Shown in pieces: positions 18,661 through 60,144 of a stretch of DNA of 64,000 bases. Made by a program: the position numbers and the translations under genes. Source of the DNA: Bacteroidota bacterium (lineage in GTDB: Bacteria; Bacteroidota; Bacteroidia; B-17B0; Aurantibacillaceae); the NCBI GenBank assembly GCA_021156365.1, contig JAJNDK010000004.1, positions 124,001-188,000 of the forward strand, given 5' to 3'. Under the pieces are notes generated by a model. That model searched no databases and was not told the DNA's origin. It saw only the letters and a program-made list of their open reading frames with translations. The number at the start of each line of letters is the position of its first letter. Position 1 is the stretch's first letter.

Positions 18661-18668
18661 TATCTTTG
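18661..18668 (+). promoter_or_regulatory. -7 box of the 2H phosphoesterase gene
   Basis: TATCTTTG lies 33 bases before ATG 18702. A TTG start at 18666 that would extend the reading frame falls inside this box, which supports the later ATG. Confidence 0.55.
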
Positions 18669-18701
18669 AGTGCTCAAAATTACGAAACAAAACAACACCA
18701 A

Positions 18702-49500: not shown

Positions 49501-50960
49501 GCAACAAGGGTCAGCAACCGTCCGTAATCACCGGTAACTGTGTAATTAAAGGTAGTGCCTGTGCCTATCGCCACACCGTCAATATTCCAGGTATAACTAT
49601 AACCGGTATTTGGCGCTGTGAAAGTGATGTTTTGTCCCGGGCTTGTAAGACCGGCAGGAGTAACGGTAAAAGTAGGTGTGGGGACAATACAGGTAAAAAC
49701 AACCGTGTCTCTGAGCACAAGATTACAACCAGGAGATGCGGTATTAATAACATATACGGTTACAGCTACAGTTGCCGCTCCGGCTATGGTTTGCGTTACT
49801 GTTTGCCCGGTTGCCGTCTGCCCGTTGAATTGCCAGAAGTAGAAAAAATTTGGGTCGGCTCCGTTAACCGTAAAGTTTGCAGGAACACCGGCAGGCAACG
49901 TATCCGGAATGCTTAAAGTCGCTACGATGGGAGCAGGGCAGGGGATACAATAGGTGGGGTGTTCCAGCAGGCTGTGTCGTATCGTACGCAGGACGTCACG
50001 CATACGTGTGCGCTGCCCGTCGGTGAAGGTGGTTTGGCAGGATTGAAATCCGTAGTCCATGTAATTCCTGAACATATCCGGCTGATCACCCAGTCCGCCT
50101 AAGGAAACGTCCCGGAAAGGATTGTTTACGGAAGGATCGTCGGAATCGGAATGACAGGTATTTGCTGAACCCGAACACAGAACGGGGGCTATCGAATTAT
50201 CCGGGGGCGTATCGCAAACCTTGTCCCCGTCGGTCATGCAGTCATTGTTGCCGCAGCCTCCTTCAAAGGTGTGATACAAGCCGAGGTAATGGCCGATTTC
50301 GTGCGCCAGCACTTTTACATCGTCGGGATTATTTGTAATGAAATCAGCTTCTATTACGATCCCGTCTATAGTACTTCCATGCGAAGCGGGCATCATGGCA
50401 TAGCCTGCAACATTAGGGCCCATGTTAAGCGAGTAGATGGAATTGACCACCCAGATGTTAAGATAAATAGTAGGATCTAACTGGCCGATCTGTTTCACAT
50501 CATAATCCTCCGTTTCCATGGTCATATTAGTAAGAGGGGAAACGTGGTGTGATATAAGTGAGGAGACCAGGCAAAAATCCACATTGATATTGGTGCTCGC
50601 GGACGGGTTAAAAGGCACCTGGTTTGCAAACGCATTGTTGATAAGGGCGAATGCATCCCACACCTGCTGATCAGGTATGTTCTCTGCACCGTTCTGGTGA
50701 AGGATATGAAAAGCGATCGGGATGGTGTATTGTTCCGTGTCGGGTGGGGTTAAGATCGTATGGCTCATGACCCTGCTGTACATGTTTTGTTCAAAATCCT
50801 GTAGCTTGACGGGGTCCATCGACCGAAGTAAAAAATCAGAACCGCAACTATGCGATCCGTTGTTTTGCGGCTGGGTTTGCGCCTGCACAGGCTGCTGCGA
50901 GAGCATTCCAAAAAAAAGGAAGCAGGCGAAAGGTCGGAAAAGTGGGGCTAATTTCTTCAT
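46536..50960 (-). CDS. T9SS-sorted M43 (pappalysin-like) metalloprotease with PKD-like repeats
   Basis: A 1474-residue secreted protein. Signal peptide (QQPVQAQ), then an M43 zinc protease domain with HEIGHYLGLYH (H220, E221, H224, H230) and nearby cysteines (GGCGNNDCMTDGDKVCDTPPD) typical of the cytophagalysin/pappalysin group. Two beta modules follow, then a beta-propeller-like region (about residues 510-870), a series of PKD/Ig-like repeats (LGNDTSICTAEM, LGPDATYCEGYV, LGPDQSLCPPIT) and a sorting domain (LTPNPGSDRVALGA ... GIYIVKIVAGKKIYYLKW). It should act outside the cell as a protease. Confidence 0.9.
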   Translation of the reverse strand: MKKLAPLFRPFACFLFFGMLSQQPVQAQTQPQNNGSHSCGSDFLLRSMDPVKLQDFEQNMYSRVMSHTILTPPDTEQYTIPIAFHILHQNGAENIPDQQVWDAFALINNAFANQVPFNPSASTNINVDFCLVSSLISHHVSPLTNMTMETEDYDVKQIGQLDPTIYLNIWVVNSIYSLNMGPNVAGYAMMPASHGSTIDGIVIEADFITNNPDDVKVLAHEIGHYLGLYHTFEGGCGNNDCMTDGDKVCDTPPDNSIAPVLCSGSANTCHSDSDDPSVNNPFRDVSLGGLGDQPDMFRNYMDYGFQSCQTTFTDGQRTRMRDVLRTIRHSLLEHPTYCIPCPAPIVATLSIPDTLPAGVPANFTVNGADPNFFYFWQFNGQTATGQTVTQTIAGAATVAVTVYVINTASPGCNLVLRDTVVFTCIVPTPTFTVTPAGLTSPGQNITFTAPNTGYSYTWNIDGVAIGTGTTFNYTVTGDYGRLLTLVASNGTCQAVSSSYYIDPNNCAGSKANSTWYFGSAAGIDFNANPPQAIQGKISTEEGCSVISDAVTGAPIFHSDGVTVGNSQTGFTLQNGTGLTGHSTTTQSAMFVPMPGSSRYVYLFTVDFQAGDLSSFAGGIYYSIIDRQGDGGNGSVTTKNQLLLAPVPEKVTAVKNMAGDGIWVISHQWNSDAFYAWLITSTGIGAPVISHTGAIHTNAPTPYSGRAALGEMKASPSGKKIAVAYSGPNLLEIFDFNTATGVLSNPVSIHSTQQSECYGVAFSPNERFLYSSAIGPTNIIRFDLSSGNSAGILASEALICSVSSGGGGALQLAPDGKIYGARRDKKYLAVISNPNAVIPANCGFVLDGFRLVDYTSSIYGLPNPVQSVLLSVDPVITGPDKICLNGAPQSVQYTFDPIGNATYTWVHHGPNTFSFVNTSTASINYHTTGIDTLIVTRTAPCGNSYDTLFITSGTAPAFDIGPDFLVCPGTPVTINATPGMFDYHWNNNTNLPTNTVTTDGKVRVEMITQSGCVLKDSLMVVYYSLPGLNLGNDTSICTAEMLTLTAPAGASSYLWSNGATSNSIMVSDSGTYVVTVGKYGCLFKDTILVRKDVLLHVIPDTLVLCGGSASFYTAPSGFDSYSWQLPSGALMHTDTVSIGDPGYYILTYSNHCGSATDSLLHYIPRIFSQDTLVSCADTIRVIADLPLEAIGSSNLAYNSYILHGDTADIYRSGDYVGIIYYPDMASGCVLLQNITVLVDTALVMPARTINLGPDATYCEGYVLPLNAGAGFETYHWNTGAIDSFTTVYGFGAYSVTARYCGFDYVDTIVITRDSSLTVSLGPDQSLCPPITLNLDAGSGFDWYYWNNGQTGQQLTVTNSGQFTIEVGLNGCIARDTILIVCPVGLAEAKACDDPFYLTPNPGSDRVALGARCVHSRDLIVSITGSDGRILGKKEGDLDDVNFFMNKMMQEMSQGIYIVKIVAGKKIYYLKWMILK

Positions 50961-51009
50961 AGTAGTTGTTTTTTTCCCGGAGTGCGGGCGTTTTGTATCC
51001 TGAATTTAA

Positions 51010-51038
51010 TAAAGATAAAAGCATGGATTATAAAACAA
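51010..51038 (-). promoter_or_regulatory. promoter of the M43 protease gene
   Basis: Minus strand: TTG at 51038-51036, 18-base spacer, TATCTTTA at 51017-51010 (last base deviates). The rest of the 279-base gap up to gpsA (51039-51239) holds nothing I can identify apart from a small CCGG-rich inverted repeat near 51160. Confidence 0.55.
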
Positions 51039-51239
51039 TCGGAGTTGGTGAGCTAATTGAGGTAAATAGTAAAAAGAGAGGATCAGATGATAAATAATTT
51101 TTAAGCACTGTAAATATAAGCATACTATAATAATATAGCGTAAAACTGGAGGCACCCCGGGATATCCGGATTTTTTGAATGGGGATGAAAAATGACAGAA
51201 CATAAAAGATCTTTCAGGGATATAGAACAGAAGAGTAGG

Positions 51240-52235
51240 TTAGCTCAGCTTCTCCGTGAGCAAACGAATCTCAATCGCCGGGGCTATCTTTTCGTACACG
51301 ATATTATATACCGCATTTACGATCGGCATATCCACCTTATATTTCTGGTTGATCTCGTGCACACACTTCACGGCATAATAACCTTCTGCGATCATGTTCA
51401 TTTCCAGCTGCGCCATCTTCACCGAATAGCCTTTACCCAGCATGGTCCCAAACATCCGGTTCCGGCTGAACTGCGAATAGGCAGTTACCAGCAGATCTCC
51501 CAGGTAAGCTGAAGCTTTTATGTCCCGGTCGATCGGGTGTACCACTTCCACAAAGCGTTCGATCTCCTGGATAGCATTGGATACCAATACACTCAGGAAA
51601 TTATCCCCATAACCAAGCCCATGACAGATGCCACCGGCTACTGCTACCACATTCTTCAGTACCGCCGAATATTCCGTTCCGTAAATATCATCGCTGGAAG
51701 TTACTTTGATGTAGCGGCAACGCATCTGTTCTGCCAGTAATTCTGCATTGACGGTTTCGCTGCAGGCGATCGTGAGGTACGAAAGTTTTTCCATAGCCAC
51801 TTCCTCCGCATGACAGGGACCGGTGATCACACCGATGTTATTCAGTGGCACATCCCAGATACTGTTGAGGTATTCGCCTACAATTAAATTATGTTCCGGA
51901 ATAATACCTTTGATGGCGGAGAAAACAAGCTTGTGCTTCAGGGCATCTTTCGGCAGGTCTTTCAGTGTATCGTGGCAAAAAGCAGAGGGAACGGCCAGTA
52001 TCAGTATTTCCGATTCCTGCACAGCCTTGTGGATATCGGCAGTGAGGTGCAGCTTATCGGTATCAAACTCCACCGAGCTCAGGTAACGCGGATTGTGGTG
52101 ATACTTTTTTATGTACTCGATGTCTTCTTCCTTCCGTGTGAACCAGCACAATTCGTCTGTATTGTTCAGTAATATTTTCACAATGGCTGTTGCCCAGCTC
52201 CCACTTCCTATTACCGATATTTTTTTTGTAGTCAT
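51240..52235 (-). CDS. gpsA: NAD(P)-dependent glycerol-3-phosphate dehydrogenase
   Basis: A 331-residue enzyme that reduces dihydroxyacetone phosphate to sn-glycerol 3-phosphate for phospholipid synthesis. N-terminal Rossmann motif VIGSGSWATAIVKIL, the ITGPCHAEEVAMEK block, and the catalytic lysine region EYSAVLKNVVAVAGGI are all present. Length fits GpsA. Confidence 0.96.
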   Translation of the reverse strand: MTTKKISVIGSGSWATAIVKILLNNTDELCWFTRKEEDIEYIKKYHHNPRYLSSVEFDTDKLHLTADIHKAVQESEILILAVPSAFCHDTLKDLPKDALKHKLVFSAIKGIIPEHNLIVGEYLNSIWDVPLNNIGVITGPCHAEEVAMEKLSYLTIACSETVNAELLAEQMRCRYIKVTSSDDIYGTEYSAVLKNVVAVAGGICHGLGYGDNFLSVLVSNAIQEIERFVEVVHPIDRDIKASAYLGDLLVTAYSQFSRNRMFGTMLGKGYSVKMAQLEMNMIAEGYYAVKCVHEINQKYKVDMPIVNAVYNIVYEKIAPAIEIRLLTEKLS

Positions 52236-52351
52236 TTTTTGTTTTCTCTTATAAACAGGTAGCTTCGAGTACCTCAGCCACCTTCTTATTTCGGTTCATA
52301 TTAAGCACGGCACTGAAAACCCGAAACCCCAAATAACAAACCCGAAATAAA

Positions 52352-53065
52352 TCAAACCGTTGCAAATATAAGCTGTTCATCGGAAACAGGAGCCTCCCCG
52401 TTCAGAATGCAATATACACTGGCCAGCGTTATCACATCACGCAGGCAGTAGTTCTTTATTTTTTCCAGGTCATTCTCTTCCCAGTAGGTGCGGGCCACGT
52501 CACTTCCGTCGATCTCGCCTTTAGGAGAAGGGAGCTTGAACACATGCGCGAGCAGGTCCAGCGATGTGAAATTTTTATGATCGCCGAATTTCCACATTTC
52601 CATGGTGTCCAGGAATTTCACATCCCAGGGTTTTTTGCCTGAGATAGAAAGGATCTTTGGTAGCTTCACACCATTGATCAGCATACGGCGGCACAGGAAG
52701 GGGAAATCAAATTCCTTTCCATTGTGGGCACATAAATTGTGAATGTCCTTGTTGTAGAATGTGTTGAGGTGTTCGGCAAACAGCTCTAACAGATGTTTTT
52801 CATCATGTCCCGAAAAGGCTTTTACATAGAACTTGCCATTGTAAAAATTCCCGAAAGAGATGCACACTACTTTGGCAAACTCTGCATAAATGCCTGCTTT
52901 CTGGTAACGTTCTGCGGGATCGATATCTTCCGAGAACTGCCATTTCTTGTCCCAGAGACGTTTCGTGTTTTCGTCCAGCTCGCTGTATTTATATACAACC
53001 GGAGCCGTTTCTATATCTAAAAAAAGAATTTTATCTGTTTCGGTGGCGTTGATGATTGTTTTCAT
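52352..53065 (-). CDS. predicted 3'-5' exonuclease (PolB-exonuclease-like, RNase H fold)
   Basis: A 237-residue DnaQ-like exonuclease. The Exo I motif is FLDIETAP (D17, E19), Exo II is in HNGKEFDFPFLCRR, and Exo III is in YCLRDVITLASVY. It matches the family described as related to the exonuclease domain of B-family polymerases, here as a stand-alone protein. Its gene follows the DUF6702 gene after 11 bases and is probably co-transcribed. Confidence 0.9.
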   Translation of the reverse strand: MKTIINATETDKILFLDIETAPVVYKYSELDENTKRLWDKKWQFSEDIDPAERYQKAGIYAEFAKVVCISFGNFYNGKFYVKAFSGHDEKHLLELFAEHLNTFYNKDIHNLCAHNGKEFDFPFLCRRMLINGVKLPKILSISGKKPWDVKFLDTMEMWKFGDHKNFTSLDLLAHVFKLPSPKGEIDGSDVARTYWEENDLEKIKNYCLRDVITLASVYCILNGEAPVSDEQLIFATV

Positions 53066-53076
53066 AAACTATAGTT

Positions 53077-53592
53077 TTAAAAGCTAAAATCGATTTTTTT
53101 ATCCGGATTGCTAACCTTGGAGCTCTGTCTGCTGGTGCCGTTTACCATCACATGCACCATGTTGATCTGGTTCGGAAGAAAGTCATACAACAGGCTGTTC
53201 TCAATGCTTACTGTTTTAGGACTGATATCTTTTTTTATTTCGAGATAGGCCCAGATGGCATCTTCTTCTTTTTCAAATCCGATGATCTCCAGGGGGAGCT
53301 TTTGTCCGTTACTTGTGATCTTCAGGTGTTTGTTGATGTAATCGGCCAGCAGTTTTTCCGTTTCTTTTTTGTCTTTCGGATGCAGTAGATCTACTTCTTT
53401 TTTGTAGATCTTTTTAAGCGCTTCTTCGAGATTATCGGTAAACATACGGCAAGTGATCTCTATTGTTTTCCCCGGATTATTGTAGTTGATTTCGGTAGTG
53501 CTTACAAAATACGGATGAAAGCCGGAACAGAGCATCCAACAAAATACGCATATAAACAGCATTTTAACCGATCGTATAATATTTGATCCCAT
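53077..53592 (-). CDS. DUF6702-like periplasmic protein
   Basis: A protein of 171 residues when read from ATG 53592 (MGSNII); the upstream start at 53661 lies beyond the -7 box at 53626-53619 and is rejected. An ATG at 53562 is also possible and would give the shortest signal peptide. The mature part begins HPYFVSTTEINYN, which is typical of DUF6702, a family often found beside HupE/UreJ and M1 peptidase genes in Bacteroidota. Both of those are next to it here. Function unknown. Confidence 0.8.
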   Translation of the reverse strand: MGSNIIRSVKMLFICVFCWMLCSGFHPYFVSTTEINYNNPGKTIEITCRMFTDNLEEALKKIYKKEVDLLHPKDKKETEKLLADYINKHLKITSNGQKLPLEIIGFEKEEDAIWAYLEIKKDISPKTVSIENSLLYDFLPNQINMVHVMVNGTSRQSSKVSNPDKKIDFSF

Positions 53593-53607
53593 CGCCTGGC
53601 TTTCTGC

Positions 53608-53626
53608 TAACTTTGTACCAAAGGTA
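53608..53626. promoter_or_regulatory. interlocked divergent -7 boxes for DUF6702 and HupE/UreJ genes
   Basis: Plus strand TAACTTTG at 53608-53615 serves the gene at 53633; minus strand TACCTTTG at 53626-53619 serves the gene ending at 53592. The two boxes form an interrupted palindrome with a three-base centre, so each predicted start site lies inside the box of the other promoter. A TTTG at 53582-53585 may be the -33 of the plus promoter (22-base spacer). Confidence 0.6.
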
Positions 53627-53632
53627 AAAAAA

Positions 53633-54211
53633 ATGAGCAATTTTGGTTTATGGTTTTCCACCGGATTTGGGCATATCCTCGACTGGCAGGGCTACGACCA
53701 TATTTGCTATATCCTCGTGCTTACCATTGCCTTCCCTTATACGGAATGGCGAAAATTGCTGGTGCTGATCACTGCTTTTACCATTGGTCACTCGCTTACA
53801 CTGGCCTTAAGTACCTGGAATATTATCCATCCGGCCCAAAAAACCATTGAGATCCTGATACCTCTCACCATATTGATAACATGCGTTTTTACTATTATAA
53901 AGCGCAATAAGCCTGTAAAAAAAGTGTCGCTGAACTATTTTTTAGCCTTATTTTTCGGACTGATCCACGGCATGGGCTTCTCTTATCTGCTCAAATCCAT
54001 GCTTGGTAGGGAAGAAAATCCTGTTGGTCCGCTTTTCTCATTCAACCTGGGCCTGGAGGCAGGACAGCTGGTAATTGTAGTGGCTGTTTTGCTTATTTCA
54101 GTAATTTTGGAGCGCTTGTTCCGCATAGCAAAAAAAGAGTATGTATTCTTTGTTTCTTCAGCTGTTTTCGGTGTTGCCGGTATGATGCTGATGGAACGGA
54201 TAAGTGAATAA
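53633..54211 (+). CDS. HupE/UreJ family membrane protein
   Basis: A 192-residue protein with six to seven membrane spans. It carries the HupE/UreJ pattern: GFGHILDWQGYDHICYILVL near the N-terminus, FTIGHSLTLALS and FGLIHGMGFSYLL. Histidine-rich HupE/UreJ proteins are linked to nickel or other metal uptake, but in Bacteroidota this variant sits with DUF6702 and an M1 peptidase rather than with hydrogenase or urease, so its substrate is uncertain. The M1 gene follows after five bases. Confidence 0.88.
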   Translation: MSNFGLWFSTGFGHILDWQGYDHICYILVLTIAFPYTEWRKLLVLITAFTIGHSLTLALSTWNIIHPAQKTIEILIPLTILITCVFTIIKRNKPVKKVSLNYFLALFFGLIHGMGFSYLLKSMLGREENPVGPLFSFNLGLEAGQLVIVVAVLLISVILERLFRIAKKEYVFFVSSAVFGVAGMMLMERISE

Positions 54212-54216
54212 AAAAG

Positions 54217-56574
54217 ATGATAATGGAAAAAACAAAACTACTGTTGTTGGTGAGTGCTGTTGGGTTGCAGCTGACTGCACAAAACATCCAGAACAATCCC
54301 AAATCCAACCACGGGAATAAATTCGAGCAATTGGGGACTATCCTCCCGGATGCAAACGTATACCGTGCTGCTTCCGGAGCTCCGGGACATAAATACTGGC
54401 AGCAGAAAGCAGACTATGATATTGAAGCAACGCTCGATGAAAAAACACTGACCTTAACGGGAACAGAGTTCATTACTTATTTCAACAACTCACCGGACAA
54501 ACTTACCTACCTGTGGTTACAGTTGGACGAGAACCAGCACGACCCGAATGGCGACAATAATTATTTTGACAACAACAGTGTGGCGAACCCTTTGACACTG
54601 GACGATGCAGAGAACCTGAACCTGAAAGAAAAGCTGAAAGAGTTAGGTGAGAAGATCCTCGAAGTGAGCGATGAGCTGGGCAAGCCTCTGAAATATACAG
54701 TCAACCAGACGATGATGCGTGTAGACCTTGCGACTACTTTACAACCCGGCGCGAAAGTAAAATTCAAAGTAAAATGGAAATACAAACTCTCCAACCGTTT
54801 GGAAACAGGGGGACGTGGAGGGTATGAATATTTTCCTGAAGACGGAAATCACTTATTCACAATGGCACAGTGGTATCCACGTATGTGTGTGTATTCCGAT
54901 TACCAGGGTTGGCAGAATAAGCAGTTCACCGGCAGGGGAGAATTTGCTCTGGCTTTCGGAAATTTTAAAGTGAAAGTAACAGTACCATCCGATCATCTGG
55001 TATGTGCGACAGGAACCGGACAAAACTATGCACAGACACTCACGCCTACACAACTGCAACGCTGGACAAAAGCACAGACGGCCAAAGACCCTGTGGAGAT
55101 TGTAACGCTGGAGGAAGCAACGAAAGCAGAGAAAACAAAAGCAAGCGGAACAAAGACCTGGATCTTCAAAGCGGACAGCGTACGTGATTTTGCCTGGGGC
55201 TCTTCGCGCAAATTTGTTTGGGACGCCATGGCTGTAAACATTGAAGGAAAGAAAACCATGTGCATGAGCTTTTATGGAAAAGAGGCGTATCTATTGTACC
55301 GCAAGTATTCTACAAAAACAGTAGCACATACCATTAAGACCTATTCAAAATTCACGATCCCCTATCCATACCCTGTTGCACAAAGCATCGAGGCTGCCAA
55401 TGGAATGGAGTACCCGATGATCTGTTTCAATTTCGGGAGAACAGAGAAGGATGGGACGTATTCGGAAGCTACCAAATATGGTATGTTGGGTGTGATCATC
55501 CACGAGGTGGGACACAATTTCTTCCCGATGATCGTAAACAGCGATGAGCGCCAGTGGAGCTGGATGGATGAGGGATTGAACACCTTTGTACAATTTTTAA
55601 CGGAACAGGAATTTGATAACAATTATCCTTCACAGCGCGGACCTGCACACAAGATCGTTGATTACATGAAAATGCCGAACAATATGCTGGAGCCGATCAT
55701 GACCAACAGTGAGAACATTGCTTTGTTCGGTCCGAATGCTTATGCAAAACCTGCTACAGCGCTTAACATACTTCGTGAAACAGTAATGGGGAGAGAGCTG
55801 TTTGATTATTCGTTTAAAGAATATGCAAGACGCTGGGCTTTCAAACATCCGACACCGGCCGATTTTTTCCGGACGATGGAGGATGCATCGGGTGTGGACC
55901 TCGATTGGTACTGGAGAGGCTGGTTCTATGATGTTGAGCCGGTGGATATTTCACTTGATTCGGTAAAGGCATTTACGGTAGTGAATACAAAACAGGTTCC
56001 TGTGAAGATAGACAGTACTTTTGCCAAGCAAACCCCGGTAGAATATATTCACGTTTCAAGATTGCGTAACAAAGAAGCAGGACTGAAGTTTTTGGTAGAT
56101 ACAGATACCACGCTTCGTGATTTTTATTATTTCTACAAACCGGAAGCGCCCGATACAAAAAAGACCGGCACCAACATTTACCAGAACATGGAGCCTGTGA
56201 GCGATTCAGCCTATACATCCAGAAATTTCCAGAATAAATATATGTATCAGCTCAATTTCACGAACAAGGGTGGATTGGTAATGCCATTGATCATCCAGTG
56301 GAACTATAAGGACGGCAGTTCGGAGATCGACCGCATCAACGCATATGTATGGCGGAAGAATGAAAAGAATGTAGTGAAAACCTTTTCAAAGAATAAAGAA
56401 GTTGCTTCTATCGTATTGGATCCTTACAAAGAAACGGCAGACATTGATGAAAAGAACAATACCTGGAATGTAAAAGCAGCGCCGTCTAAATTTGATATGT
56501 TCAAAGCAAAAACAGCAGGCCGCGGACAAAGCACGGGAGGAAATCCTATGCAGAAAGCAGCGGGGAAGAAGTAA
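54217..56574 (+). CDS. M1-family aminopeptidase-like metallopeptidase
   Basis: A 785-residue secreted gluzincin. A signal peptide (LLLLVSAVGLQLTAQ) is followed by the M1 N-terminal beta domain and the catalytic domain with HEVGH (H429, H433) and the third zinc ligand E452 after 18 residues (WMDEGLNTF). The exopeptidase GAMEN motif is replaced by NGMEYPM, as in many bacterial relatives. There is no T9SS sorting domain; the C-terminus is a basic, glycine/lysine-rich tail. It probably acts in the periplasm or on the outer membrane, in an operon with HupE/UreJ. Confidence 0.92.
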   Translation: MIMEKTKLLLLVSAVGLQLTAQNIQNNPKSNHGNKFEQLGTILPDANVYRAASGAPGHKYWQQKADYDIEATLDEKTLTLTGTEFITYFNNSPDKLTYLWLQLDENQHDPNGDNNYFDNNSVANPLTLDDAENLNLKEKLKELGEKILEVSDELGKPLKYTVNQTMMRVDLATTLQPGAKVKFKVKWKYKLSNRLETGGRGGYEYFPEDGNHLFTMAQWYPRMCVYSDYQGWQNKQFTGRGEFALAFGNFKVKVTVPSDHLVCATGTGQNYAQTLTPTQLQRWTKAQTAKDPVEIVTLEEATKAEKTKASGTKTWIFKADSVRDFAWGSSRKFVWDAMAVNIEGKKTMCMSFYGKEAYLLYRKYSTKTVAHTIKTYSKFTIPYPYPVAQSIEAANGMEYPMICFNFGRTEKDGTYSEATKYGMLGVIIHEVGHNFFPMIVNSDERQWSWMDEGLNTFVQFLTEQEFDNNYPSQRGPAHKIVDYMKMPNNMLEPIMTNSENIALFGPNAYAKPATALNILRETVMGRELFDYSFKEYARRWAFKHPTPADFFRTMEDASGVDLDWYWRGWFYDVEPVDISLDSVKAFTVVNTKQVPVKIDSTFAKQTPVEYIHVSRLRNKEAGLKFLVDTDTTLRDFYYFYKPEAPDTKKTGTNIYQNMEPVSDSAYTSRNFQNKYMYQLNFTNKGGLVMPLIIQWNYKDGSSEIDRINAYVWRKNEKNVVKTFSKNKEVASIVLDPYKETADIDEKNNTWNVKAAPSKFDMFKAKTAGRGQSTGGNPMQKAAGKK

Positions 56575-56581
56575 GTATTTT

Positions 56582-56597
56582 CCCGATAGCTATCGGG
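56582..56597. repeat. CCCGATAGCTATCGGG palindrome
   Basis: A 16-bp perfect palindrome directly after the M1 peptidase stop. It is identical to the core of the 36-bp palindrome at 19250-19285, also placed just after a stop codon. Dispersed intergenic repeat. Confidence 0.85.
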
Positions 56598-56638
56598 TTT
56601 GAGGTTTCTGGTTGGTAAAGCTCAGGGATACTTGTAGC

Positions 56639-57511
56639 TTAAATTTTTTTTAGACCAACAATTTCAAACGGGACCTCGAATTCCAGCCTGTCAATTTCAC
56701 CTGTTGGTTTTTTGAAGCGGAAAGTACCATATATCTTGTAAGATCCAGGGCTTAACGGTTTTGTTTTTAGCAGGAAACCCTTTTCGACCTGTCTGTTGGA
56801 AAAGAAAACATCGTTTATATAATCACGCATATGGGACTCTTTCTTGTCGATACTTTCGATACCCGTAATGTGAAGGCTGTCTGCGTTTTCATAGTAAGGC
56901 AATGTGAAATTATTTAAGTACAGGAATAAAGTATCCTCCATACGTTCTATGATAAGGTCATAATGAGTAACGGGTGATCCCCAGCTGCAGTTAGTGGAAA
57001 TTTTCCATGACGTTAAGGCTACTATCATGTTATCTAACCTTTGATAAGCCTGTTTTTGCAGGTAATAAGCGAGTATTCCTGCATCAGGTATAGATTCCCC
57101 GTATGCCGAAAAAGGCTGCATTCGCAAATCAAGAGTGTCTTTTGGAAAGAAAAACGGCCTTTCGAAAACACGTGTGGCAGAATCCAGGGCACGATTGTAT
57201 TTGGCTGCGAAATTACTATAAACACTCTCAATGTTTGCTGAGGTAAAATGATCACGTTTTAGTAATCCATTGATGGAAGCAATAAATTCATCCGAATTCT
57301 TTTTTTCATCAGTAGCGAGGTTCAGATAAATATTCTCCCTGATATAAAAGGGCTGATACTCTTTCTTAAGCTTTTGAAAATCCGTGTCGCATTTGGCCCG
57401 ATAGTACTTGCAATCTTTTTTTAACGAGTCCGTAAAAAAGACCTGATCGATTTTTTCTGAACAAGCAGTTAGTATTAAAAACAGCGAAAAGAAAAAGAAT
57501 AGTTTATTCAT
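56639..57511 (-). CDS. lipoprotein of unknown function
   Basis: A 290-residue protein with a lipoprotein signal peptide (FLILTAC, lipidated C17). The N-terminal part is helical and charged; the C-terminal part is beta-rich with a probable small Ig-like domain (SYKIYGTFRFKKPTGEIDRLEFEVPFEIV). No family recognised. It is monocistronic; its stop faces the palindrome after the M1 gene. Confidence 0.72.
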   Translation of the reverse strand: MNKLFFFFSLFLILTACSEKIDQVFFTDSLKKDCKYYRAKCDTDFQKLKKEYQPFYIRENIYLNLATDEKKNSDEFIASINGLLKRDHFTSANIESVYSNFAAKYNRALDSATRVFERPFFFPKDTLDLRMQPFSAYGESIPDAGILAYYLQKQAYQRLDNMIVALTSWKISTNCSWGSPVTHYDLIIERMEDTLFLYLNNFTLPYYENADSLHITGIESIDKKESHMRDYINDVFFSNRQVEKGFLLKTKPLSPGSYKIYGTFRFKKPTGEIDRLEFEVPFEIVGLKKI

Positions 57512-57576
57512 ACGGTCAGATTAAACATCTAACGGGAATTATGTGAAAAGTAACAAGAAACCTGCAACGAGAAACA

Positions 57577-58293
57577 TTAAACGGTTCTCGTAGAAACAGT
57601 AACGATACTCTCGTTCTGAAAATCACTTTCTACAAGCCCGTCTTTCAAGCGAACGATGCGGTGTGCATGGCGTGCGATATCCTCTTCGTGCGTAACAAGG
57701 ATGATGGTATTTCCTAATCTCTGGATCTCTTCAAACAATCCCATGATCTCTACCGATGTTTTGGAATCCAGATTTCCCGTAGGCTCATCGGCAAGGATGA
57801 TAGCAGGCTTGTTGACCAGTGCGCGTGCAATAGCAACACGCTGGCGTTGTCCGCCTGATAGTTCGTTGGGTTTATGTGTCATCCGGTTTCCCAGTCCTAC
57901 CTGTTCCAGTACTTCCTTCGCTCTTTTTTCACGATCCGCTTTTGCTATACCGGAGTATACAAGCGGAAGCGCTACATTGTCCAATGCGGTGGAACGCGGC
58001 AATAAATTGAATGTCTGAAAAACAAAACCGATCTCTTTGTTACGCACTTCGGCCAGATCGTTATCCAGCATATTGGCAACGGAAATATTGTTGAGGATGT
58101 ATTCTCCCGAAGTAGGCGTATCAAGGCAGCCAAGGATGTTCATCAGCGTGGACTTGCCCGATCCGGAAGGGCCCATCAGTGCTACATATTCATTGCGGTG
58201 GATGGAAAGCGATACGGATTTTAATGCGTGGATCTCTTCCGTACCGATCGTATATTGTCGGGCAATGTTTGTGAGTTTGATTATTTCCTGCAT
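57577..58293 (-). CDS. ABC transporter ATP-binding protein (MacB/LolD type)
   Basis: A 238-residue ATPase of the type VII (MacB/LolD/FtsE) group. Walker [11 protein letters not shown]-loop [10 protein letters not shown], signature [15 protein letters not shown], Walker [14 protein letters not shown] and switch histidine in VTHEED are all present. It should drive a MacB/LolC-type permease for lipoprotein release or export, but no permease gene is adjacent. A -7-like box (TAAAAGTA, 58321-58328, minus strand TACTTTTA) lies upstream. Confidence 0.94.
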
Positions 58294-58356
58294 AAAAAAT
58301 TCCGGAAGAAAATGAGTGCCTAAAAGTACAGAAATGAGTTTACAAAAATGTGGTCC

Positions 58357-58432
58357 AAAAAAAATCCCGCTTTTGAGGGCGGGATTTCGTAAGCCTTTCG
58401 GCTTACAACCTATGAAACACTAACTAAAACCT
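58357..58432 (-). ncRNA. predicted small non-coding RNA, about 76 nt
   Basis: An intergenic transcript predicted from three joined elements on the minus strand: a full consensus promoter (58437-58467), a 5' unpaired stretch of about 26 bases containing GUUUCAUAGG, a 7-bp hairpin with a GAAA tetraloop (GUAAGCC GAAA GGCUUAC, 58406-58389), and a rho-independent terminator (stem AAATCCCGC / GCGGGATTT, followed by eight Ts, ending near 58357). There is no open reading frame longer than a few codons. It is divergent to rprX and lies in front of the ABC ATPase gene, yet the terminator would stop read-through into it. I do not recognise a known RNA family; 5' and 3' ends are estimates. Confidence 0.7.
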
Positions 58433-58436
58433 GAGG

Positions 58437-58467
58437 CAAATATATATGATTAATCATCGTTAACAAA
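58437..58467 (-). promoter_or_regulatory. promoter of the predicted small RNA
   Basis: Minus strand: TTTG at 58467-58464, a spacer of exactly 19 bases, TATATTTG at 58444-58437. This is one of the best promoter matches in the window. Confidence 0.75.
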
Positions 58468-58528
58468 ATTTAAATCAGTTCAAGTTTGTTAAAATTTCTT
58501 AACAATCTGTTTTACAAGCAGTAAAAGT

Positions 58529-58536
58529 TAATTTTG
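58529..58536 (+). promoter_or_regulatory. -7 box of rprX
   Basis: TAATTTTG, nine bases before the ATG; the mRNA leader would be only a few bases. Confidence 0.5.
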
Positions 58537-58545
58537 TAAATTACA

Positions 58546-60144
58546 ATGTTTAAGCAGAACACCAGTGTTATCACGATTTTAGCCAGTATTTCCATCCTGG
58601 CACTCATCGGGGTTCAGCTTTTCTGGATCAATAATGCAGTTGAACTACGAGAGGAAGAATTCCGGGGCTCCATAAATGAGGCCCTTAACAGCGTAGTGGA
58701 AAAACTCGACAAAACTTCTGCAGCAGCCAAGATCAAAAAGAACATACGCCTGCGCAAACAAGGCATTCGCACCTATCCGGCCGACTACTCCATCAAAAAA
58801 GTGCTCACCTCCGATACGATGAAAAACAAGGTGAACGATATTTTTGAAAAGGATAAAGTAAATGTAAAGGTCTTCGAAGAGCTCACTACCGATTCGAACG
58901 GAGTGGTGACCACTACCTACAATAAATACGAAGGCGATACCATGGAAGCGAGTGGCATTCTCGGACCCTTATCATCAGATGAGCTGCAGGGCACCAACGA
59001 TGTGGAAAAACTGAAATTAGAGCTGATCCAGCAGCGTACGGAAATGGTGCACGATCTTTTTGAAGAGCTGGTAAGCATCAATATCTATAAGAATTACAAG
59101 CCGCAGATAGATACGGTGCTGTTAGACTCACTGTTGAAATCGGAGCTGTTGTATAAAGGGATCAATTCCAATTACATTTACCGGATCAGTATTGATGAAA
59201 CCAGGAATATCAATGACTTTATCCACTCGGTGCATGAATGTGATACCACGGGTTGTTATTTTAAGATCAACCTGGCGCCCAACAATGCATTTATCAAGCC
59301 TACCTTTCTTTCGGTATACTTCCCCAAACACAAGACCTATATATACAAAACCCTCTGGATCATGCTGACGGTATCAGGGGTTATAATAATTATCCTCACT
59401 TTTTCGTTCTATTATACGATCACGACCATCCAGAAGCAAAAGAAACTATCGCTGATCAAGAACGATTTCATCAGTAACATGACACACGAGTTTAAAACAC
59501 CCATTTCCACTATATCGCTGGCCAGTGAGTTCCTGAACGATGACAGCGTGATGAAAACCCCGGAAAAGGTGGGACGTTATGTAAAAATGATCAAGGACGA
59601 GAACAAACGGCTAAGTGTGTTAGTGGAGAGTATCCTGCAGACCGCTATCCTCGATAAGGGCGATTTTAAGCTGAAGATCACCGATATCGACCTCCATGAG
59701 ATCATCAACCAGGCCATTCAAAACATTCAGTTACAGGTAGAACAGCGAAAAGGCACAATAATTCCTAAATTTTTTGCCACTAATCCCAAAATATTTGCAG
59801 ATAAGGTACATATTACTAATATTGTCTTCAATTTAATGGACAATGCGATCAAGTATTCCAAAGAAGTACCTGAAATCACCATTACCACTGATAACCGGAT
59901 TGATGGCATAGTTTTTTCGGTGAAAGATGCAGGTGTGGGTATAACCAAGGATAACCTGAAAAAGGTTTTTGATCAGTTTTACCGGATACCAACCGGCAAC
60001 GTTCACAATATCAAGGGCTTCGGCCTCGGTCTCAGTTACGTGAGAGCTATTGTGATCAAGCATGGAGGTGATATTTCGGTAGAAAGTGAAATTAATAAAG
60101 GAAGTACATTCAGGGTGTTCCTTCCGTATAAACAAGAAGAATAA
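58546..60144 (+). CDS. rprX: sensor histidine kinase, RprX-like
   Basis: A 532-residue membrane kinase. Membrane spans at about residues 10-28 and 268-290 enclose a periplasmic sensor of about 240 residues. HisKA phospho-acceptor H314 in SNMTHEFKTPISTIS, then HATPase boxes N (FNLMDNAIKYS), G1 (VKDAGVGI), F (FDQFYRI) and G2 (GFGLGLSYV). Together with the next gene it resembles RprX/RprY of Bacteroides fragilis, a system linked to envelope stress and tetracycline response. The inducing signal is unknown. Confidence 0.85.
   Translation: MFKQNTSVITILASISILALIGVQLFWINNAVELREEEFRGSINEALNSVVEKLDKTSAAAKIKKNIRLRKQGIRTYPADYSIKKVLTSDTMKNKVNDIFEKDKVNVKVFEELTTDSNGVVTTTYNKYEGDTMEASGILGPLSSDELQGTNDVEKLKLELIQQRTEMVHDLFEELVSINIYKNYKPQIDTVLLDSLLKSELLYKGINSNYIYRISIDETRNINDFIHSVHECDTTGCYFKINLAPNNAFIKPTFLSVYFPKHKTYIYKTLWIMLTVSGVIIIILTFSFYYTITTIQKQKKLSLIKNDFISNMTHEFKTPISTISLASEFLNDDSVMKTPEKVGRYVKMIKDENKRLSVLVESILQTAILDKGDFKLKITDIDLHEIINQAIQNIQLQVEQRKGTIIPKFFATNPKIFADKVHITNIVFNLMDNAIKYSKEVPEITITTDNRIDGIVFSVKDAGVGITKDNLKKVFDQFYRIPTGNVHNIKGFGLGLSYVRAIVIKHGGDISVESEINKGSTFRVFLPYKQEE

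Follow-up and report, generated by a model that had tools for sequence, protein, structure and literature searches.

Bidirectional promoters and fused metal-capturing permeases

Bidirectional promoters of Escherichia coli and Salmonella were reportedly the subject of a study by Warman in 2021. The two directions of such promoters usually share one near-symmetric -10 element, and their starts lie mostly 18 bp apart, with distances of 10 and 23 bp also seen (PMC12825309, PMC10268837). In E. coli, 24% of them are placed between divergent genes (PMC12825309). A literature search for bidirectional promoters in Bacteroides or Bacteroidota found nothing. Promoters of the Bacteroidota sigma-A (sigma-ABfr) are described as carrying a TAnnTTTG -7 box and short leaders (PMC9723704, PMC7366714), and in F. 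psychrophilum the box occupies positions -12 to -5 (PMC9723704). A further described system that bears on the present locus is that of the HupE/UreJ-2 permeases of other phyla, which have fused metal-binding 'Ang' domains (anglerases; Ang-1, Ang-2; PMC12537917). Section 7 of that source, devoted to DUF6702, presents a DUF6702 protein as a metal binder with picomolar Ni affinity, reports that most members retain a histidine at the predicted mature N-terminus, and contains no mention of the PF13795 permease.

The locus described here lies in a stretch of 64,000 nucleotides (64 kb), referred to in full as the window. Like the promoters of E. coli and Salmonella, with divergent starts a few bases to about 20 bp apart, it would combine a near-symmetric core element with two possible polymerase orientations. 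Unlike them, it has two whole, separate boxes 3 bp apart in place of a shared -10 element, and the predicted distance of 6 bp between its starts falls just outside the range of 7-25 bp applied in published work. Each half agrees with Bacteroidota sigma-A promoters in its box and in the predicted box position and short leader, and departs from the usual form only in that the two boxes face each other and that DUF6702 has a weak -33 element or none. With the anglerase-HupE/UreJ-2 proteins, the gene pair shares a predicted secreted domain with a putative N-terminal histidine, an Ang-1-like fold and a PF13795 permease. It differs from them in that the Ang-like domain and the permease are separate divergent genes in Bacteroidota and not one fused protein.

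Architecture of the divergent locus

The DUF6702 gene (PF20420, E 1.6e-44) occupies 53077..53592 on the minus strand, with its ATG at 53592, and encodes a putative signal peptide whose cleavage would leave a mature protein beginning at the His of codon 53517-53515. On the plus strand, the HupE_UreJ_2 permease gene (PF13795, E 4e-45) extends over 53633..54211 from its ATG at 53633 and is followed, 5 nt downstream, by an M1-type metallopeptidase gene (54217..56574, plus strand; PF01433, E 4.1e-14) that is probably carried on the same transcript. NCBIfam holds no model for DUF6702 or HupE, no riboswitch or other known RNA reached the gathering threshold in 50000-60000, and the spacer showed no phage similarity. 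A scan for sigma-70 promoters like those of E. coli, which gave 6 where 3.3 were expected, was not informative.

The 40-nt spacer between the two start codons contains both -7 boxes. Between these back-to-back genes, the 19 bases at 53608-53626, TAACTTTGTACCAAAGGTA, read as TAACTTTG-TAC-CAAAGGTA, two arms that agree at seven of eight positions and that each fit TAnnTTTG, one per strand and facing. The box proposed for HupE_UreJ_2, TAACTTTG (53608..53615, plus strand), is a strict TAnnTTTG scoring 9.4 on a position matrix built from 501 regions upstream of tandem genes in nine genomes, for which the maximum is 10.36; the box proposed for DUF6702, TACCTTTG (53619..53626, minus strand), scores 9.7, and a three-base spacer (53616..53618) separates the two. 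Both boxes are near-consensus and appear plausible as Bacteroidota -7 elements. The HupE box ends 17 nt before the ATG, and box-to-start distances in tandem genes peak at 15-25 nt. A possible -33 TTTG for the HupE promoter (53582..53585, plus strand) is found within the DUF6702 coding region, 22 nt ahead of the box. The minus-strand box has no TTTG at the usual spacing, and reading the sequence revealed no good -33 TTTG for the DUF6702 promoter.

With the box at -12 to -5, as in F. psychrophilum, transcription would start at about 53620 for HupE (plus strand, leader 13 nt) and at about 53614 for DUF6702 (minus strand, leader 22 nt), on opposite strands and 6 bp apart. Both predicted transcripts would begin in the same sense, AAAG-like, each inside the CAAAG of one arm. 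When a strict TAnnTTTG is laid face to face over its own complement by hand, a base conflict arises at every offset and no overlap is possible, so that a shared -10 element of the E. coli type would be unavailable in that form. The first-pass annotation had described the boxes as the eight-base arms of one interrupted palindrome, which is confirmed, and had put each predicted start inside the other box, which holds if the box occupies -12 to -5. The sequence likewise supports its proposal that polymerase would be unable to open both interlocked boxes at once. Its further claim of complementarity between the initial bases of the two mRNAs was mistaken, and complementary 5' ends are rejected from the geometry: the transcripts predicted to start at 53620 (plus) and 53614 (minus) diverge, with five untranscribed bases between them.

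Facing boxes in the window and in the genome

The window contains 27 strict boxes on the forward strand and 31 on the reverse, and two face-to-face pairs at spacings of 0-40, at 53608 (spacing 3) and at 18661 (spacing 6). Box density leads one to expect 0.14 such pairs in the window at spacings of 0-10 and 0.013 at spacing 3, and dinucleotide shuffles of the 40-nt spacer gave a pair with spacing 0-10 in 4 of 20,000 cases and one with spacing 3 in 0 of 20,000, so that for this spacer the pair exceeds what chance would give. The second pair of the window (18661-18682), TATCTTTG-6-CAAAATTA, likewise lies in a divergent spacer.

Genome-wide, face-to-face pairs with spacings of 0-20 number 50 against 30 for a reversed control, and the excess is located at spacings 3-7 (18 against 7.1 expected; Poisson 5e-4); three sites have spacing 3, in the form TANNTTTGNNNCAAANNTA, and five of the 50 pairs belong to a single repeated element whose boxes have spacing 16. 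The pairs with spacing 0-10 (n = 30) divide into 17 in divergent spacers, which with their margins make up 2.9% of the sampled sequence, 6 within genes and 7 elsewhere, gene contexts in this count and in the next two being approximate (the crude gene caller put the DUF6702 start too deep in the gene, at 53535, for a gap of 97 nt). Counted as boxes in the sampled sequence of the genome, antisense boxes at most 30 nt from a gene start amount to 15 per 170 divergent starts and 2 per 251 tandem starts (Fisher 5e-5). When 2.06 Mb from nine genomes were sampled, the 199 divergent spacers held six strict pairs with a predicted start distance of 0-9, against 0 for the reversed control. The face-to-face arrangement is real and recurrent, but it is a minority.

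Two other arrangements were seen alongside these pairs. A back-to-back pair sharing TA, CAAANNTANNTTTG, occurs 24 times in the genome and 10 times in the reversed control, and such sites are candidate shared-TA bidirectional promoters whose starts would lie 23 bp apart. The repeated element with boxes 16 bp apart is 32 bp long and present in five copies (G000:C2:57, C8:467998, C14:12364, C17:158882 and C21:33750), at least three of them near contig ends; it probably represents a repeat, for instance the end of an insertion sequence.

Conservation of the spacer among relatives

A contig scan and a search of 60 relatives yielded 110 HupE loci, at 101 of which DUF6702 lies upstream on the opposite strand; leaving aside three with a gap of more than 260 nt and repeats of identical spacers, 92 distinct spacers were compared. 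Set beside these relatives, the spacer bears out the DUF6702 half of what the first-pass annotation had described and not the palindrome. The DUF6702 box, read as CAAAnnTA just before the HupE ATG, is kept in 18 of 19 distinct spacers whose HupE is at least 54% identical and in 36 of all 92. The strict face-to-face pair is found in 1 of 19 close spacers and 1 of 92 overall, that of the window alone. Only 6 of the 92 have a strict TAnnTTTG anywhere in the 60 nt ahead of HupE, and two congeners (L005 and L006) are without the strict HupE box at this place. Taken together, these comparisons would make a DUF6702 promoter well supported and a HupE promoter moderately so, and do not support the palindrome as such; that the DUF6702 box is a functional promoter is very probable indeed.

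In 14 close spacers out of 19, the pair of boxes that scores best on the matrix puts the predicted starts 1-6 bp from each other, mostly through a weaker TAnnTTTA box for HupE. In at least 11 of those 14, this weaker box reaches into the first codons of DUF6702, because DUF6702 there starts with GTG or ATG 3-4 nt past its own box, and the conservation of the weaker box in relatives could be explained by coding. Codon evidence for a selected weak HupE box, namely nTA at codon positions 2 and 4, is no more than suggestive, since the relatives lack independence and the regions around starts are rich in A+T. Given how rare the strict HupE box is, and that the two congeners lack it at this place, the HupE half of the promoter could be lineage-specific or accidental. 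Among 23 loci compared, 13 (L007, L009-L013, L015, L051, L052, L054, L055, L057 and L085) have a DUF6702 start codon, mostly GTG, 3-4 nt after the -7 box, from which a leaderless mRNA would be predicted, conserved across species; this placement confounds the argument for the HupE box.

The DUF6702 protein and its genomic partner

The assignment of DUF6702 to PF20420 holds in 59 of 59 members of set A2. HPYFVS follows the hydrophobic stretch of the window's DUF6702, and an HP-type motif is present in 92 of 94 distinct homologues counted with it, which is the figure relied on, the 100/100 obtained for His1 being by selection (the script sought an H motif). Searches by sequence for solved relatives returned none for HupE at E<=0.01 and one chance-level match for DUF6702. 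The predicted structure of DUF6702 (pLDDT 94.7) finds its best structural match in 9gce, the Ang-1 domain of a HupE/UreJ-2 protein (Foldseek E 1.5e-6), with a Z of 11.4 over 129 aligned residues, 3.2 A and 11% identity; ZrgA and PA4063 structures, several of them zinc-bound, come next. As modelled, DUF6702 is thus similar to the Ang-1 domain, which captures metal and which other phyla fuse to this permease, though a common fold is no proof of function.

Within the set of 60 genomes, 34 have both families, one has HupE only, three have DUF6702 only and 22 have neither (Fisher 3.5e-12). At 27 of 42 HupE/UreJ loci, the gene is divergent from DUF6702 at 300 nt or less, and at seven the two are in tandem with DUF6702 first; at the other eight, some of which are near contig ends, no DUF6702 lies within 300 nt. 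This pairing is, to judge from the genomes, the signature of one function in two genes and not of alternatives, and together with the model it makes DUF6702 and HupE/UreJ look like two halves of one metal-uptake device.

In one relative (L243, G033:C13:30000-44000), two tandem DUF6702-HupE pairs flank genes for a NicO nickel transporter and a CobW GTPase, and a TonB receptor adjoins the region, which is likely a metal-uptake island. The genome of the window itself has a second DUF6702-HupE pair (L242, G000:C9:44000-56000), in tandem and situated between purple-acid-phosphatase-like and PhoX-like genes, both with type IX secretion tails.

A candidate promoter for a proposed split metal-capture system

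The explanation that we hold to be fairly probable takes the site for a compact sigma-A promoter working in both directions, from which the two parts of a split system, a metal-capture protein and its permease, are expressed together. The two interlocked -7 boxes, with their opposed starts, would form one bidirectional sigma-A promoter driving a secreted, metal-binding DUF6702 protein with an N-terminal histidine on one side and a HupE/UreJ-2 metal permease on the other, a pair that would correspond, as two separate genes, to the fused Ang-HupE/UreJ-2 'anglerase' permeases found in other phyla. A single short stretch of accessible DNA, with leaders of roughly 13 and 22 nt, would allow both genes to be expressed together and would force no choice between them. 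The sequence itself shows the boxes, how far they lie from the genes, the retention of the DUF6702 box, the conserved pairing of the genes and the fold match; the start sites, the co-expression and a role of the locus in metal transport we infer. If both boxes work, mutual exclusion at polymerase binding is inevitable, but polymerases would exclude each other only at the moment of binding, which would matter only if one direction were strongly activated.

Were this explanation to hold, a metal-capture system for which only fusion proteins have been described until now would have a split form here, and DUF6702 would gain a partner in the PF13795 permease, linked to it by position, co-occurrence and fold in a two-protein model of metal capture. 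Bidirectional promoters would also extend to a phylum in which two facing directions cannot share the -7 box, with an alternative geometry shown. A broader proposal is offered tentatively and is more doubtful than not: that Bacteroidota have their own class of bidirectional promoter, with interlocked, non-shared TAnnTTTG boxes and starts 2-6 bp apart because the -7 box is unreadable both ways, which here would co-produce a trans-acting (split) anglerase and a HupE/UreJ-2 permease.

Operators of metal-sensing regulators are of a size like that of a 19-bp interrupted palindrome. The inverted repeat, lying between metal genes, might on these grounds be mainly such an operator, its resemblance to promoter boxes being secondary, but the symmetry is lost in relatives, and of the three TANNTTTGNNNCAAANNTA sites in the genome only 53608-53626 has CTTTG...CAAAG, so that there is no regulon of this sequence. 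With a single CTTTG-N3-CAAAG site in the genome, an operator with a regulon was rejected, and an operator role in general seems very improbable. A weightier alternative, though still an unlikely one, holds that only the DUF6702 box is functional and that the HupE box arose by chance or recent gain, HupE being transcribed from a weaker or different site. The contrast between the kept DUF6702 box and the strict pair, and the two congeners without the strict HupE box, are what this account would lead one to expect; it sits less easily with a HupE box scoring 9.4/10.36 at the usual distance from its ATG, and with the production of a strict forward box by only 425 of 20,000 spacer shuffles.

The bidirectional promoter has also to be set against the either/or choice between two functions that the first-pass annotation had suggested, in which steric exclusion would turn DUF6702 and HupE into alternative states. 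The predicted melted regions do overlap, and E. coli promoters strongly activated in one direction can be repressed in the opposite one (PMC12825309). Against such a switch, which we regard as improbable, the strict interlock is not conserved, and the two genes co-occur, stand in tandem with DUF6702 first at 7 of 42 loci, and would be halves of one device. The E. coli work points the same way, in that basal transcription of bidirectional promoters is described there as too low for competition, with exclusion arising only on substantial one-way activation, and basal competition was small in the five promoters tested (PMC12825309).
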